DNA of 64,000 bases, taken from the NCBI RefSeq assembly GCF_022869805.1, contig NZ_CP094974.1, positions 682,001-746,000 on the forward strand, written 5' to 3'. Shown in pieces: positions 15,149-33,130 of the stretch. Numbering within the stretch: position 1 is the first letter of the stretch; each line of letters opens with the position of its first letter. This stretch comes from Halosolutus halophilus. Lineage in GTDB: Archaea; Halobacteriota; Halobacteria; Halobacteriales; Natrialbaceae. Below the pieces are notes generated by a model. The model was not told where the DNA came from and made no database searches. It saw only the letters and a program-made list of their open reading frames with translations. The position numbers and the translations under genes were made by a program.

Positions 15149-16312
15149 TTATGTCGACGGACCGATCCGGTGGATCGCGAACTGACTTTCGCCGAGCACT
15201 TCGCTGAGTGTTTGCTTGCCGTTGACGACCTCCATGATCTCGTCCCAGAGTTCGTCGGTGGCCCAGTCGATCGTCTGGTCGCCGACCAGCGCTTCGCTGA
15301 CGTCGACGTCGGTTTCTTCGGGAACGCGTTCGGCGCTGCCGGGGTTCCCGGTGATCTTGATCGTCGGCATGATCGCGTTCGAGAGGGTGTGGCCCTGGCC
15401 CGTGGAGATGATCATGAAGTGTGCGCCGCCGGCACCGATCCCGGTGACTGATTCTGCGCCGTGGCCGGGCGAGTCCATGATGTACATGCCACTCTCCTCG
15501 GGAATTTGCTCGGCGTAGTCGACCAGGTCCTGGATGGGGCCGTCGCCGGATTTGACCAGCGCGCCGAGGGCTTTCTCCTCGATGGTCGTCAGCCCACCGT
15601 CCATGTTGTCCGGCGTCGGCTGGGCGCCCCGGACGTCGTAGCCGGTCTCTTGCAGTCGCTGGTCCCAGTTATCGACGTAGTCCAGAATCTTCTGGGCGAC
15701 GTCGTCGTTGACCGCGCGTTCGGCCAGCCCTTCCTCACCGCCGAAGAACTCCGGCGTTTCCGCGAAGACGGCGCGGCCGCCTTCGTCGATGAGCCGCCAG
15801 GCGGCCCCTGCAGTGGCCTTGTGCTGGCAGAGGCCGCTGGTGGTGTCCGAGGTCGCACAATTGATCCCGAAGGTGAGATTCGAGATGTCATGGGGCTGGC
15901 GCTGCTGGGCGCTGGCGTCCTGGACCATCTCGCGGGTGGCGTTGACGGTGGCTTTGAGGCCGTTCATCACGCCCTTCTCGTCGTGGATGTTGATGCTCGC
16001 ACTCGGGCGGCCGGTCTCCGCGATGTCGTCGGCCAGTTCGTCGCCGTCAACGATCTCGCCGGCGTGGGCGACCACGACCGCCCCGTAGGTGTTCGGGTGG
16101 GTGGCATAGCCGAGCAGCGTCCGGTAGGTCTGGAAGACGTCGGGTTTCGTCTGACACCGCCCCAGCGGATGGGTGATCGGGATCGCATCGTCGACGATCT
16201 CCGCCGCTCGCTTTACCGTGTCGTTGGCGTACGGGGCCGTCGCGATGATCGGGACGAAGTTTCGAATGCCAATACTGCCGTCAGATCGTTCGTATCCGAG
16301 AAAGTCTGTCAT
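15149..16312 (-). CDS. suyB: Large subunit of sulfolactate sulfo-lyase (UxaA superfamily), copy 1
   Basis: The 387-residue product is a UxaA/altronate-dehydratase large domain without the SAF part (GIRNFVPII, HPLGRCQTK, FGINCATSDTTSGL, MYIMDSPGHGAESVTG, GQGHTL). SuyB is the known member of this superfamily that works with a separate SAF subunit, SuyA, to split (R)-3-sulfolactate into pyruvate and sulfite. Here the SAF gene lies 28 nt upstream, a SuyZ-type exporter follows, and HpsN- and ComC-like genes are in the window. All of this favours SuyB over altronate or galactarate dehydratase, though those remain possible. The protein is identical to that of copy 2 at 30877; the genes differ at 11 third-codon positions. 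It is distinctly more GC-rich than the genes around it. Confidence 0.75.
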   Translation of the reverse strand: MTDFLGYERSDGSIGIRNFVPIIATAPYANDTVKRAAEIVDDAIPITHPLGRCQTKPDVFQTYRTLLGYATHPNTYGAVVVAHAGEIVDGDELADDIAETGRPSASINIHDEKGVMNGLKATVNATREMVQDASAQQRQPHDISNLTFGINCATSDTTSGLCQHKATAGAAWRLIDEGGRAVFAETPEFFGGEEGLAERAVNDDVAQKILDYVDNWDQRLQETGYDVRGAQPTPDNMDGGLTTIEEKALGALVKSGDGPIQDLVDYAEQIPEESGMYIMDSPGHGAESVTGIGAGGAHFMIISTGQGHTLSNAIMPTIKITGNPGSAERVPEETDVDVSEALVGDQTIDWATDELWDEIMEVVNGKQTLSEVLGESQFAIHRIGPST

Positions 16313-16779: not shown

Positions 16780-17820
16780 TCATCCGAGAATAGTCAACAG
16801 AACCAACAGCGACAGCGTGCTAACGGTGATGAACGCCATCAAAACAACGAGTACGGGTTGTAGACCTGCACGCAGGAGCTTTTCAATTTCGAGGTCGCTT
16901 CCCAGACCGACGAACGCGAACAAGAACAGCCAGCCATAGGCGTTCTCAAGTGACTGCACGTCTTGTGAGGAGAGAAGCCCGACGCTCGCAATAACCGCAA
17001 GTACAAGGAAGCCAACAACAAATTTCGGGAAACGGTGCCAGAACTCTCTCCAGCGGATAGTGGTTCCGTCGTCATTTGAGCCAATTTCATGGCGGGCATA
17101 GTACGTTGCGTAACCGACGGCAACGAGACCGAGCAGTGCGTTCCGTGTGAGTTTCGTGACTGTTGCCCACTGGCCGGCGGCGTCTGAGTGAGCAAATCCA
17201 ACAGCAACAACAGGGCCCGTGCTGAACATACTTACGCCAGCCCAGATGCCAAACACCTGTGCTGGCAGCTCTAACAGCTGGCCGACGATTGGATAGCCAA
17301 TGATAGTGATCGCATCAAAGAGGAGGACAGTCGCTGCTGCATAAGCGACGTGCTCTTCTTTTGCAGAGATACTTCCAGCAACAGCAACGACCGCCGATAC
17401 GCCACAGATACTGGAACCCGCCGCGAGTAGTGATGCGAATCTCTCAGAGAGTCCAAAAACCCCTCTAGACAATAGTTCTACATAGAGGAGTGTAAAGAGT
17501 GTGACAGTGAGCACCGAAATAATGGCGACAGCACCACTCTCGACAATTTGATTGAAAGACAGAGATGCGCCCATGAGCACGATGCCGGCACCAAGCCACA
17601 CCTTGTGTGTTTGCACACCGGGAACCGCCCACTCTGGAATACCGGTAGTATTCGTAAGAACTACGCCAATAATGATCGCGATAAGTAACTCATTGATAGT
17701 CGAGATTGCTGACCCAATCGTCCAAGCGATGACCGCTCCAACGACCAGTATAAGGATTCCCGGGAGGTAATCGCGAAAGTAGTAGCCGACCGGACCATCG
17801 TACGGCAGATTTACAACCAT
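16780..17820 (-). CDS. suyZ: YeiH-family (COG2855) membrane exporter, SuyZ-like
   Basis: The 346-residue product is polytopic, with about 10 hydrophobic segments and YeiH-family landmarks: VVLTNTTGIPEWAVPGV, KVWLGAGIVLMGASL, the AAGSSICGVSAVVAVA loop and FAFVGLGSDLEI near the end. YeiH/COG2855 proteins are predicted anion (sulfite or sulfate) exporters, and SuyZ of sulfolactate and cysteate degraders belongs to this family. The product of SuyAB is sulfite, so export of sulfite or sulfate is the natural job. A 38-residue ORF precedes it by 3 nt. A broken paralog lies beside the second suyAB copy at 32476-32941, so this may be the only functional exporter in the window. Confidence 0.8.
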   Translation of the reverse strand: MVVNLPYDGPVGYYFRDYLPGILILVVGAVIAWTIGSAISTINELLIAIIIGVVLTNTTGIPEWAVPGVQTHKVWLGAGIVLMGASLSFNQIVESGAVAIISVLTVTLFTLLYVELLSRGVFGLSERFASLLAAGSSICGVSAVVAVAGSISAKEEHVAYAAATVLLFDAITIIGYPIVGQLLELPAQVFGIWAGVSMFSTGPVVAVGFAHSDAAGQWATVTKLTRNALLGLVAVGYATYYARHEIGSNDDGTTIRWREFWHRFPKFVVGFLVLAVIASVGLLSSQDVQSLENAYGWLFLFAFVGLGSDLEIEKLLRAGLQPVLVVLMAFITVSTLSLLVLLTILG

Positions 17821-17823
17821 TAG

Positions 17824-17940
17824 CTATCCCGGAATGTTTACGTTTGATCCGACGATGAGTGCGACGATAGCAAATCCACACGTAACACTCTTCCAGTCTG
17901 TATCCAGTGTGATCCAGCGCTCGAGGACTCCCTCAGACAT
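17824..17940 (-). CDS. Tiny membrane protein upstream of suyZ (38 residues)
   Basis: The ORF starts MSEGVLERWITLDTDWK and ends in a single hydrophobic helix followed by VNIPG. Its stop is 3 nt from the suyZ start. A homologous sequence (WLALDVDWKGD, then a helix and LNVPVPG) sits in the same place beside the second, decayed suyZ at 32945, so it has been conserved through duplication. It could be an accessory subunit of the exporter or a split-off first helix. The reading frame is open further upstream to 18012, but the ATG at 17940 starts the conserved part. Confidence 0.65.
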   Translation of the reverse strand: MSEGVLERWITLDTDWKSVTCGFAIVALIVGSNVNIPG

Positions 17941-18022
17941 ACTGTCAGATGAGTGGATTCCCACTGAACTATTTAACTCTTTTGTAATTGTCCAATCAAT
18001 CCCACCTATCACCAGCCCAAAG

Positions 18023-18053: not shown

Positions 18054-19355
18054 ATGCCGACGAATGGCAAGCAGCAAATCGAGAGTAGAGAGTATCTCAA
18101 AAAAGCTACTGGATCCGCTGCAGAGATCGAGCAGTGGGTGAAAGATTCAGTGAGTGATATCCTCCAGGAAGTTCGTGAAAATGGCGACTCCGCGATTTTG
18201 TCGTTTACGGAAGAGTTCGATGATGTAGTCCTCGAAGATGTCCGCGTCTCTCAGGAGGAGATTGATGAAGCGAGAGAAATGCTCTCGGCGGAAGAGAAGG
18301 CGGTTATTGATCGCAGTATAGAACGTGTCGCTAACTTCGCCGAGGCACAGAAAGACGCGATGAAGAACGATTTTGAATCGGAATTCGGGGACGGAATCCG
18401 ATGTGGTCAGAGAACACTCCCAGTTAGTGCTGCTGGAACGTACGTCCCAGGTGGGAACTTCACGCATATCGCTTCGGCTGTAATGTCGATCACGCCTGCG
18501 ACTGTAGCCGGTGTTGACCGGATCGTCACTTGCACTCCCCCTCGAGAGGATGGGAGCGTCAATGCGTACCAACTATACGCTATGGCCGAATCCGGTGTCG
18601 ACGAAATCTATAAAATTGGAGGTGCTCAAGCGATTGGAGCGATGGCTTACGGTACCGAATCGATTGATTCGGTGGATATCGTTACTGGACCGGGGAACGT
18701 ATTTGTCGTTGAAGCTAAACGACAAGTTTTTGGAGACGTTGATTTAGATCTTCTTCCTGGACCGACAGAAACGCTAATTATTGCAGACGAGACGACTGAT
18801 CCTCATGTGGCTGCAGTCGACCTCCTTTCCCAAGCCGAGCATACGGAATCATCGCAGTGTGTTTTGATTTCAACAGACGAGGGCGTGGCAGAGGAAATCT
18901 TGGAAGAGATTGAGGACTTCCTGCCGAAGCTTGATACTGAGGAAACAGCCCGGAAGTGCTGGACGAAAAACGGCGAAGTCGCAGTCGTCACTGACTATGA
19001 CCAAGCCGCAGCATTGGCTAACGAATATGCCATCGAACACGTCCAAGTCATGACGGAGAATCCTCGAGACCTTGTTGAGAATCTCAAAAACTATGGGTCG
19101 CTGTTCCTCGGTCATAATGCTCCCGTTGTTTTCGGCGATAAAATAACTGGTCCAAACCATATTCTTCCAACGAACGGTACTGCAAGATTTAATGGTGGCT
19201 GTAATGTCGGATCATACCTCAAGAAGGTAACTCACCAGGAGATCACGCCCGAGGGTGGTGAATATCTTTCCTCGTATGGCGCAAAGATCTCTGAATTGGA
19301 AGGAATGCATGGTCACCAACTGTCTGCAGAACTTCGACCAGTCGAGCGAGATTAA
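18054..19355 (+). CDS. hpsN: HisD-family dehydrogenase, candidate DHPS 3-dehydrogenase (HpsN)
   Basis: The 433-residue product is a complete histidinol-dehydrogenase-family protein: VPGGNF, GPGNVFVVEAKRQVFGDVD, LPGPTETLIIAD, zinc ligand region LLSQAEHTESSQ (Gln and His), the Glu-His pair in YAIEHVQ, FGDKITGPNHILPT and a C-terminal HGHQLSAE. HisD makes histidine, but HpsN, a HisD homolog, oxidises (R)-2,3-dihydroxypropanesulfonate to (R)-sulfolactate. Beside SuyAB, SuyZ, a TRAP transporter and an SDR, with no histidine genes near, HpsN is the better call. Divergent promoters separate it from suyZ. Histidinol dehydrogenase itself cannot be excluded from sequence alone. Confidence 0.72.
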   Translation: MPTNGKQQIESREYLKKATGSAAEIEQWVKDSVSDILQEVRENGDSAILSFTEEFDDVVLEDVRVSQEEIDEAREMLSAEEKAVIDRSIERVANFAEAQKDAMKNDFESEFGDGIRCGQRTLPVSAAGTYVPGGNFTHIASAVMSITPATVAGVDRIVTCTPPREDGSVNAYQLYAMAESGVDEIYKIGGAQAIGAMAYGTESIDSVDIVTGPGNVFVVEAKRQVFGDVDLDLLPGPTETLIIADETTDPHVAAVDLLSQAEHTESSQCVLISTDEGVAEEILEEIEDFLPKLDTEETARKCWTKNGEVAVVTDYDQAAALANEYAIEHVQVMTENPRDLVENLKNYGSLFLGHNAPVVFGDKITGPNHILPTNGTARFNGGCNVGSYLKKVTHQEITPEGGEYLSSYGAKISELEGMHGHQLSAELRPVERD

Positions 19356-30876: not shown

Positions 30877-32040
30877 TTACGTCGATGGGCCGATCCGGTG
30901 GATCGCAAACTGGCTCTCGCCGAGCACTTCGCTGAGTGTTTGCTTGCCGTTGACGACCTCCATGATCTCGTCCCAGAGTTCGTCGGTGGCCCAGTCGATC
31001 GTCTGGTCGCCGACCAGTGCCTCACTGACGTCGACGTCGGTTTCTTCGGGAACGCGTTCGGCGCTGCCGGGGTTCCCGGTGATCTTGATCGTCGGCATGA
31101 TCGCGTTCGAGAGGGTGTGGCCCTGGCCCGTAGAGATGATCATGAAGTGTGCGCCGCCGGCACCGATCCCGGTGACTGATTCTGCGCCGTGGCCGGGCGA
31201 GTCCATGATGTACATGCCACTCTCCTCGGGAATTTGCTCGGCGTAGTCGACCAGGTCCTGGATGGGGCCGTCGCCGGATTTGACCAGCGCGCCGAGGGCT
31301 TTCTCCTCGATGGTCGTCAGCCCACCGTCCATGTTGTCCGGCGTCGGCTGGGCGCCCCGGACGTCGTAGCCGGTCTCTTGCAGTCGCTGGTCCCAGTTAT
31401 CGACGTAGTCCAGAATCTTCTGGGCGACGTCGTCGTTGACCGCGCGTTCGGCCAGCCCTTCCTCACCGCCGAAGAACTCCGGCGTTTCCGCGAAGACGGC
31501 GCGGCCGCCTTCGTCGATGAGCCGCCAGGCGGCCCCTGCAGTGGCCTTGTGCTGGCAGAGGCCGCTGGTGGTGTCCGAGGTCGCACAATTGATCCCGAAG
31601 GTGAGATTCGAGATGTCATGGGGCTGGCGCTGCTGGGCGCTGGCGTCCTGGACCATCTCGCGGGTGGCGTTGACGGTGGCTTTGAGGCCGTTCATCACGC
31701 CCTTCTCGTCGTGGATGTTGATGCTCGCACTCGGGCGGCCGGTCTCCGCGATGTCGTCGGCCAGTTCGTCGCCGTCAACGATCTCGCCGGCGTGGGCGAC
31801 CACGACCGCCCCGTAGGTGTTCGGGTGGGTGGCATAGCCGAGCAGCGTCCGGTAGGTCTGGAAGACGTCGGGTTTCGTCTGACACCGCCCCAGCGGATGG
31901 GTGATCGGGATCGCGTCGTCGACGATCTCCGCCGCTCGCTTTACCGTGTCGTTGGCGTACGGGGCCGTCGCGATGATCGGGACGAAGTTTCGAATGCCAA
32001 TACTGCCGTCAGATCGTTCGTATCCGAGAAAGTCTGTCAT
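30877..32040 (-). CDS. suyB: Large subunit of sulfolactate sulfo-lyase (UxaA superfamily), copy 2
   Basis: The 387-residue product is identical to copy 1 at 15149. Here it sits in a suyA-suyB-comC operon within a sugar-catabolic cluster, and its base composition matches its neighbours, so this copy is the likelier donor in a conversion event. The reaction inferred is (R)-sulfolactate to pyruvate and sulfite, feeding central metabolism. Altronate-type dehydration is the main alternative. Confidence 0.75.
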   Translation of the reverse strand: MTDFLGYERSDGSIGIRNFVPIIATAPYANDTVKRAAEIVDDAIPITHPLGRCQTKPDVFQTYRTLLGYATHPNTYGAVVVAHAGEIVDGDELADDIAETGRPSASINIHDEKGVMNGLKATVNATREMVQDASAQQRQPHDISNLTFGINCATSDTTSGLCQHKATAGAAWRLIDEGGRAVFAETPEFFGGEEGLAERAVNDDVAQKILDYVDNWDQRLQETGYDVRGAQPTPDNMDGGLTTIEEKALGALVKSGDGPIQDLVDYAEQIPEESGMYIMDSPGHGAESVTGIGAGGAHFMIISTGQGHTLSNAIMPTIKITGNPGSAERVPEETDVDVSEALVGDQTIDWATDELWDEIMEVVNGKQTLSEVLGESQFAIHRIGPST

Positions 32041-32475: not shown

Positions 32476-32941
32476 TTAGCCGAGGACAGCCAGTAAAACC
32501 AGCAGCGAGACCGTGCCGACCGTGAGGTGGGCGATCAACACCACGGGTATCGGCTGCATCCCGGTACGTCGGATCTTCGCCGCTTCGAGGTCCGTGCTGA
32601 AACCGGCGAACGCGAGCGTTTCGACGTAGACGATCGTGAATGCGCCACACAGAGCACGACGACGCCGTGTTCGATGTATCTGATCGAGGGCGAGCGACGC
32701 GCCCACGGGAACGAGCCCCCGTCCCGAGCCAGATTTTGTTGGGTCGAACGCCAGCGTTGGCCCACTCCGGGATTTCGATCGTGTTCGTGACGACGACCCC
32801 GACGACGATCGCAACGAGCAACGCGTCGATACCCGGGAGCAGCGACCCGAGCACCGAGGCGACGACCGCACCGGTCACCAGGACGGCCACACCCGGGGCG
32901 TGGTCGACGATCGAGCGCCGGAATGAGAGTGCATCTCCCAC
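32476..32941 (-). pseudogene. Decayed second suyZ (YeiH family)
   Basis: The minus strand starts as a normal YeiH protein (VVTNTIEIPEWANAGVRP, then KIWLGTG) for about 75 residues, then breaks. A second frame carries GFSTDLEAAK and LTVGTVSLLVLLAVLG, the C-terminal end of the family. The central part (about residues 95-270 of copy 1) is missing and the ends are in different frames. An internal deletion plus frameshift has inactivated it, while the suyAB and comC genes beside it are intact. Confidence 0.8.
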
Positions 32942-32944
32942 CGA

Positions 32945-33130
32945 TTATCCCGGTACAGGGACGTTGAGACCGACCAGGAGTCCGACGATGTCGATCCTAC
33001 AGACGTCGCCTTTCCAGTCCACATCGAGAGCCAGCCACCATCGGACGAGGGTTGTTCGGAGTCGGTACCAGGCGTAAACCCGGTCGTTGTGTCTCCCGTT
33101 GTCGCTTCGGGTGGAATCTTTACCGACCAC
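32945..33130 (-). CDS. Small ORF upstream of the decayed suyZ
   Basis: The C-terminal half (WLALDVDWKGD followed by one hydrophobic helix and LNVPVPG) is clearly homologous to the 38-residue ORF before suyZ copy 1. The N-terminal half looks unlike it and no good ATG stands at the equivalent place, so the start may have been lost or be a non-ATG codon. Coordinates are those of the open frame. It may be decaying along with suyZ. Confidence 0.45.
   Translation of the reverse strand: MVGKDSTRSDNGRHNDRVYAWYRLRTTLVRWWLALDVDWKGDVCRIDIVGLLVGLNVPVPG

Follow-up and report, generated by a model that had tools for sequence, protein, structure and literature searches.

This work describes a conserved, mostly unannotated family of small proteins that is tied to YeiH, and is found in most Halobacteria having YeiH. 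One member lies in the window, by which is meant the whole 64,000-nucleotide stretch of DNA that was analysed, where an open reading frame encoding MSEGVLERWITLDTDWKSVTCGFAIVALIVGSNVNIPG (38 aa, minus strand translation) directly precedes the YeiH-type gene suyZ. The reading we favour, with reasonable though far from complete confidence, is that this microprotein is a putative single-span accessory subunit of YeiH, and at the same time the separated counterpart of a helix that opens the longer YeiH proteins of other lineages.

The initial annotation rightly placed the tiny reading frame 3 nt before suyZ, the ATG of which is at 17820 and in frame with it. The family is defined here by an RW..L..DW(Q/K)(S/A)V..G helix and a short tail, encoded by a reading frame ending within ~8 nt of a same-strand YeiH start; the window sequence combines RWITLDTDWKSVTCG.. 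with the 3-nt gap to YeiH and a profile E of 4.1e-15. The TTAAATA element would place the start of the transcript a few nt 5' of the reading frame, making it the probable first gene of the operon (Table 1). An alternative GTG, 24 nt upstream of the ATG, would yield 46 aa, but was disfavoured because the TATA-like box would then be only ~6-12 nt upstream; its position instead fits the ATG at 17940, which is therefore preferred. SuyZ itself matches the full length of PF03601 (profile positions 1-303 of 304, E 7e-65, 219 bits against a cut-off of 24.5), and scores 130 bits against TIGR00698, under the cut-off of 232.6. Adjoining the suyZAB operon is a divergent histidinol-dehydrogenase family gene (18054-19355), which could be an HpsN-like sulfopropanediol dehydrogenase supplying sulfolactate to SuyAB, rather than an enzyme of histidine biosynthesis.

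Table 1. Positions of the microprotein gene, its operon and the second copy in the window
Feature	Position	Strand	Remarks
Micro-ORF, 38-aa single-helix membrane protein (predicted)	17824..17940	-	ATG 17940, TAG 17826-17824; YeiH-associated small-protein family
TATA-like TTAAATA	17970..17976	-	30-36 nt upstream of ATG; putative promoter from sequence
suyZ / YeiH-type transporter, 346 aa	16780..17820	-	PF03601; predicted NhaP/NapA/KefC-like elevator fold
suyA-like SAF-domain protein, 101 aa	16341..16646	-	3' of suyZ, same operon
suyB-like GD_AH (UxaA-type) protein, 387 aa	15149..16312	-	Downstream, same operon
Second micro-ORF copy, degenerate	32945..33085	-	46 codons and stop, no ATG
Decayed second suyZ	32506..32905	-	Three tblastn fragments in two frames, large internal deletion

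Searched with tblastn, the 38-aa query found itself at E 1.2e-21 and short reading frames directly 5' of YeiH in ~20 related genomes, at E 2.3e-6 to 1e-3. Once aligned, family members were usually 46 aa and followed the pattern MxxDxxxx..VxxRWxxLERDWQSVxVGAxIVxxV......IPW, with profile E as low as 4e-23, and with the D-W, G and IPW positions conserved across families of Halobacteria. The 38-residue length and VPG/IPG terminus initially described are not typical, the norm for the family being 46 aa ending in IPW. Among 292 Halobacteria genomes, the profile matched in 196 (E<=0.1) and a PF03601 gene was present in 172, Haloferax volcanii being among the carriers. The search of upstream regions that had been proposed as a check clearly returned homologues: a microprotein match lay upstream, on the same strand, of 113 of the 150 PF03601 matches listed for these genomes, and at least nine of the remaining 37 had divergent copies (L092, L097, L100, L101, L112, L120, L124, L128 and L130). 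A further 28 microprotein matches with E<1e-5 had partners that were not among the PF03601 matches listed, and all 28 preceded a YeiH gene. Every inspected match away from YeiH had an E of 1e-4 or worse; these (L016, L110 and L257-L261) were judged unrelated, the DW motif alone being shared. Of this group, the haloarchaeal proteins at L016 and L258-L261 carry TDW(R/K/Q)AVGxGFVVxLxVGxxGLxIP, and resemble the microprotein by motif only.

The association extends beyond the metabolic setting of the window. Genes for suyA, suyB or a hisD-like protein were absent within ~1.5 kb of all other microprotein-YeiH loci examined. Therefore the tie to suyZ in particular, as originally proposed, does not hold, and the partnership is with haloarchaeal YeiH generally, rather than with sulfolactate breakdown. 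The broader proposal of an unannotated part of YeiH-type exporters was borne out as a gene family tied to YeiH in the haloarchaeal branch, but does not apply to YeiH generally. No credible Pfam or NCBIfam match was found for any of 21 members of the family, the best E being 0.03 for single members; of the copies in four haloarchaeal plasmid records, one bears a hypothetical-protein annotation and three do not appear in the gene table, which is incomplete. Nor was an earlier description of the small protein found in the literature searched, of which the coverage was incomplete.

At some loci YeiH stands without its small neighbour. Decayed copies of the microprotein gene adjoin intact YeiH at L099 and L102, meaning the protein is dispensable in places, and no copy was found at some other intact YeiH genes. 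Including these two, there are five haloarchaeal loci (L115, L122, L125, L099 and L102) at which YeiH is intact and the microprotein sequence is decayed, truncated or rearranged, suggesting repeated loss; at L125, the N-terminus of YeiH itself begins MSTEHRWSW.

The favoured reading can be set out as follows. The reading frame would be translated just ahead of YeiH/SuyZ, and probably coupled to it, into a small single-span membrane protein with its N-terminus inside and its C-terminus outside, which would act as an accessory subunit of YeiH/SuyZ. The microprotein would most likely be the separated form of the (E)DWWA(V/I)WLG helix that long YeiH proteins, in a sister clade, keep in the same chain; in these long forms a second extra helix connects the N-terminal helix to the core, and haloarchaeal YeiH has no such second helix. 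Translation, membrane insertion, binding to YeiH and homology with the fused helix are what we infer, as are a role in the stability, oligomerisation or elevator motion of the transporter, and sulfite or sulfate as its substrate. The orientation is predicted from the asymmetry of charge across the helix: in 68 sequences, Lys and Arg averaged 3.1 ahead of the helix, against 0.06 past it. Many haloarchaeal YeiH cores have Arg-rich N-termini, such as MSVRRLLPG, and hence the N-terminus of the core is also predicted to be inside.

The fused helix was found by scanning 84,980 species genomes for long YeiH, using a bait sequence as a probe only, with the conclusions drawn from the database loci returned. 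Long YeiH proteins (~445-600 aa, PF03601) occurred in Desulfobacterota, Nitrospirota, Bacteroidota, Planctomycetota and others, with similar fused proteins in Archaeoglobi-like genomes of the same phylum as the Halobacteria (the name being inferred), such as L223, MKYESMWKKEDWWAVWLGLGIIAMAILIFYSG. Like the microprotein, they place a DW-(x)-A(V/I)xxG helix N-terminal to the core: nearly all open with a helix resembling (E)D(W/Y)(W/M/L)A(I/V)(W/L)xG, of which the Glu and Asp were invariant in an alignment of 18 long proteins. The difference is one of arrangement: in the long forms this helix belongs to the transporter chain and a second extra helix comes after it, whereas the Halobacteria have a separate ~46-aa gene and no second helix. 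When the microprotein profile was compared with that of long YeiH, the single best match was the N-terminal helix, with DW falling on (E)DW (P 0.012-0.015; HH probability 3%). None of 200 column shuffles reached the score of 20.3, one of 200 exceeded the like-for-like score of 19.4, and three of 200 shuffles restricted to the helix region scored as high. Considering the proteins individually, the best match to the microprotein was at the N-terminal helix in 39-40 of 78 long YeiH, including most matches above 2 bits, and the strongest single match (L214, E 9e-4) was also there. A maximum-likelihood tree recovered the long YeiH as a clade (support 100/100), which grouped with haloarchaeal YeiH (100/99), apart from short bacterial and most short archaeal YeiH, when rooted at the midpoint. 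Homology between the microprotein and the fused helix is, on these comparisons, suggestive only.

Hence the alternative that fares best retains the subunit but severs this kinship: the microprotein could be a real accessory subunit of YeiH that arose as an independent single-span partner, with DWxAV..G being a common motif for entry into the membrane. Convergence of the DW helices is possible, because a DWxAVxxGxxV start also opens the unrelated haloarchaeal proteins described above; the HMM-HMM score is weak, and the two differ in the distance that separates the motif Asp and the conserved Trp past the helix (34 against 23 residues). In addition, the haloarchaeal branch has at its base L232, a short archaeal YeiH with neither a microprotein gene nor a fused helix. 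Yet two helices of independent origin would have to share both their place immediately ahead of the YeiH core and the register of their match, in proteins that form sister clades in the tree, and we regard an unrelated subunit as unlikely, albeit worth serious consideration.

The arrangement of the two genes permits another explanation, in which the peptide itself matters little. Of 70 non-identical pairs, 69 had a distance of -7 to +8 nt between the stop codon and the YeiH start, the commonest values being 4 nt (23 pairs), -7 nt (16) and 3 nt (8). A TTAACT/TTAAATA-like element lies ~24-36 nt upstream of the ATG in many microprotein loci, which suggests a near-leaderless transcript that starts with the microprotein gene, from a putative promoter. 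The short reading frame might therefore be a leader that brings ribosomes and membrane targeting to the start of YeiH, its product being little used later, as would suit its promoter-proximal position, the stop/start overlaps or 3-4 nt gaps, and its tolerated loss in some lineages. Selection on the sequence speaks to this directly. The Nei-Gojobori pN/pS of the family was 0.53 in the coding frame, whereas the two shifted frames gave 1.15; for residues 1-15 it was 1.16, and for residues 16-46 it was 0.33, with 0.25 for YeiH. The first 15 residues are thus unconstrained, as a leader would allow, and for the same reason the window copy can be eight residues shorter. But residues 16-46 are under purifying selection, and the conserved D-W, G and IPW are residues that coupling does not need, making a purely translational role improbable.

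The two remaining explanations dispense with a separate protein altogether. In the window, the two genes are in frame with one TAG between them, such that the micro-ORF could be the true start of YeiH, reached by read-through. This was ruled out by the wider set of pairs, 61 of 70 being out of frame, with all three stop codons occurring; hence the microprotein is a separate polypeptide, and read-through is not a general mechanism. It would also join a helix with its N-terminus in and C-terminus out straight to a core beginning inside, which is topologically inconsistent, and we give the idea almost no credence. Least credible of all is a spurious reading frame that chance alone has conserved in GC-rich intergenic DNA, as although 38 aa is short enough for a chance origin, the profile scores, the confinement of strong matches to YeiH loci and the codon-level selection leave it practically no probability.

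Returning to the separated-helix reading, structures were predicted for a long YeiH and for the window pair. The model of the long archaeal protein L223 (mean pLDDT 86) has an N-terminal helix at ~90-94, then the second extra helix, then the core. When AF2 was given the window microprotein and YeiH as one chain through the TAG, the mean pLDDT was 90, with the microprotein helix at ~85-90 and the linker below 50. The cores of L223 and the window YeiH match antiporters of the NhaP/NapA/KefC type (Z up to 14.5 and 16.8, respectively), and both match ASBT more weakly; the fold matches of long YeiH include the oxaloacetate decarboxylase beta-gamma entry 6iww_A (Z 12.7). In these monomer models the matches start at the core, and the extra helix falls outside the aligned part. 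A PDB sequence search with SuyZ found no relative, and Foldseek comparison with the PDB gave marginal E-values (best 1.3e-3) and poor superposition.

Small single-span proteins on larger transporters have precedents. KdpF and AcrZ, each ~50 aa or less, stabilise or modulate a larger transporter and are single-span like the microprotein, although they belong to other transporter families and no sequence relation is claimed. OadG is a small single-span subunit on the elevator-fold OadB, where it packs on T6, T4 and T10 of the beta subunit and stabilises the complex (PMC7274780). By analogy, OadG and OadB may be the closest working parallel for the putative microprotein-YeiH pair, as both would join a small single-span protein to an elevator-fold partner. 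The likeness stops at the C-terminus, which in OadG is cytoplasmic and carries a tail for recruiting the alpha subunit; no such tail was seen in the microprotein, which ends with IPW/IPG right past the helix, at a position predicted to be outside. Enterobacterial YeiH has the same core family as the haloarchaeal protein, and is a short form not known to carry the extra helix. In Salmonella, YeiH is required for sulfite resistance, and it is considered a transporter with an antiporter-like fold (PMC12880088). In the literature searched, this genetic work on sulfite resistance was the only evidence bearing on export of sulfite or sulfate.

Topology may also account for why the helix has its own gene. 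A helix that ends outside could not be fused directly to a core that begins inside, and hence would stay a separate polypeptide. We therefore raise, tentatively and with slightly less than even confidence, the idea that haloarchaeal YeiH is a transporter made of two polypeptides, in which the first membrane helix comes from its own gene, having been split off by topology after the loss of the connecting helix. If true, this would give the PSE/YeiH family a subunit that has so far gone unrecognised, and would be a testable case in which topology may determine where a membrane protein is divided. Little is understood of the YeiH-type proteins, which occur widely and have a link to sulfite resistance, and a small partner conserved across an archaeal class, and matching a fused helix, offers a direct handle on the parts of the transporter that matter. 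Haloarchaeal gene catalogues also gain a missing entry, as no curated family covers the microprotein.

The initial annotation had argued for a real protein from a duplicated locus in the window, and a counterpart near 32945 is indeed present before a decayed second suyZ, which lacks query residues 118-301 in tblastn. The family is real and conserved, but this second copy, a degenerate paralogue, is the weakest evidence for it: the copy, which ends with ..VRWWLALDVDWKGDVCRIDIVGLLVGLNVPVPG* at 32945, has no ATG, carries charged residues within the helix, and shares only 51% DNA identity with the first. Although the adjacent copies of suyA and suyZ show divergence or decay, the suyB-like genes at 15149-16312 and 30877-32040 encode identical 387-aa products, a sign of recent gene conversion or duplication.

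Small neighbours of YeiH may not be of one kind only. At two loci that are probably from Archaeoglobi (L227:356-496 and L228:317-550, both on the plus strand), a different single-span protein is encoded directly 5' of a long YeiH. These proteins, of 47 and 78 aa, share the pattern ..EPWDP...L.KySi.iGIVL.I.L.AII..TIL, and may represent another type of small membrane protein associated with YeiH; the 78-aa one has CxxC pairs.
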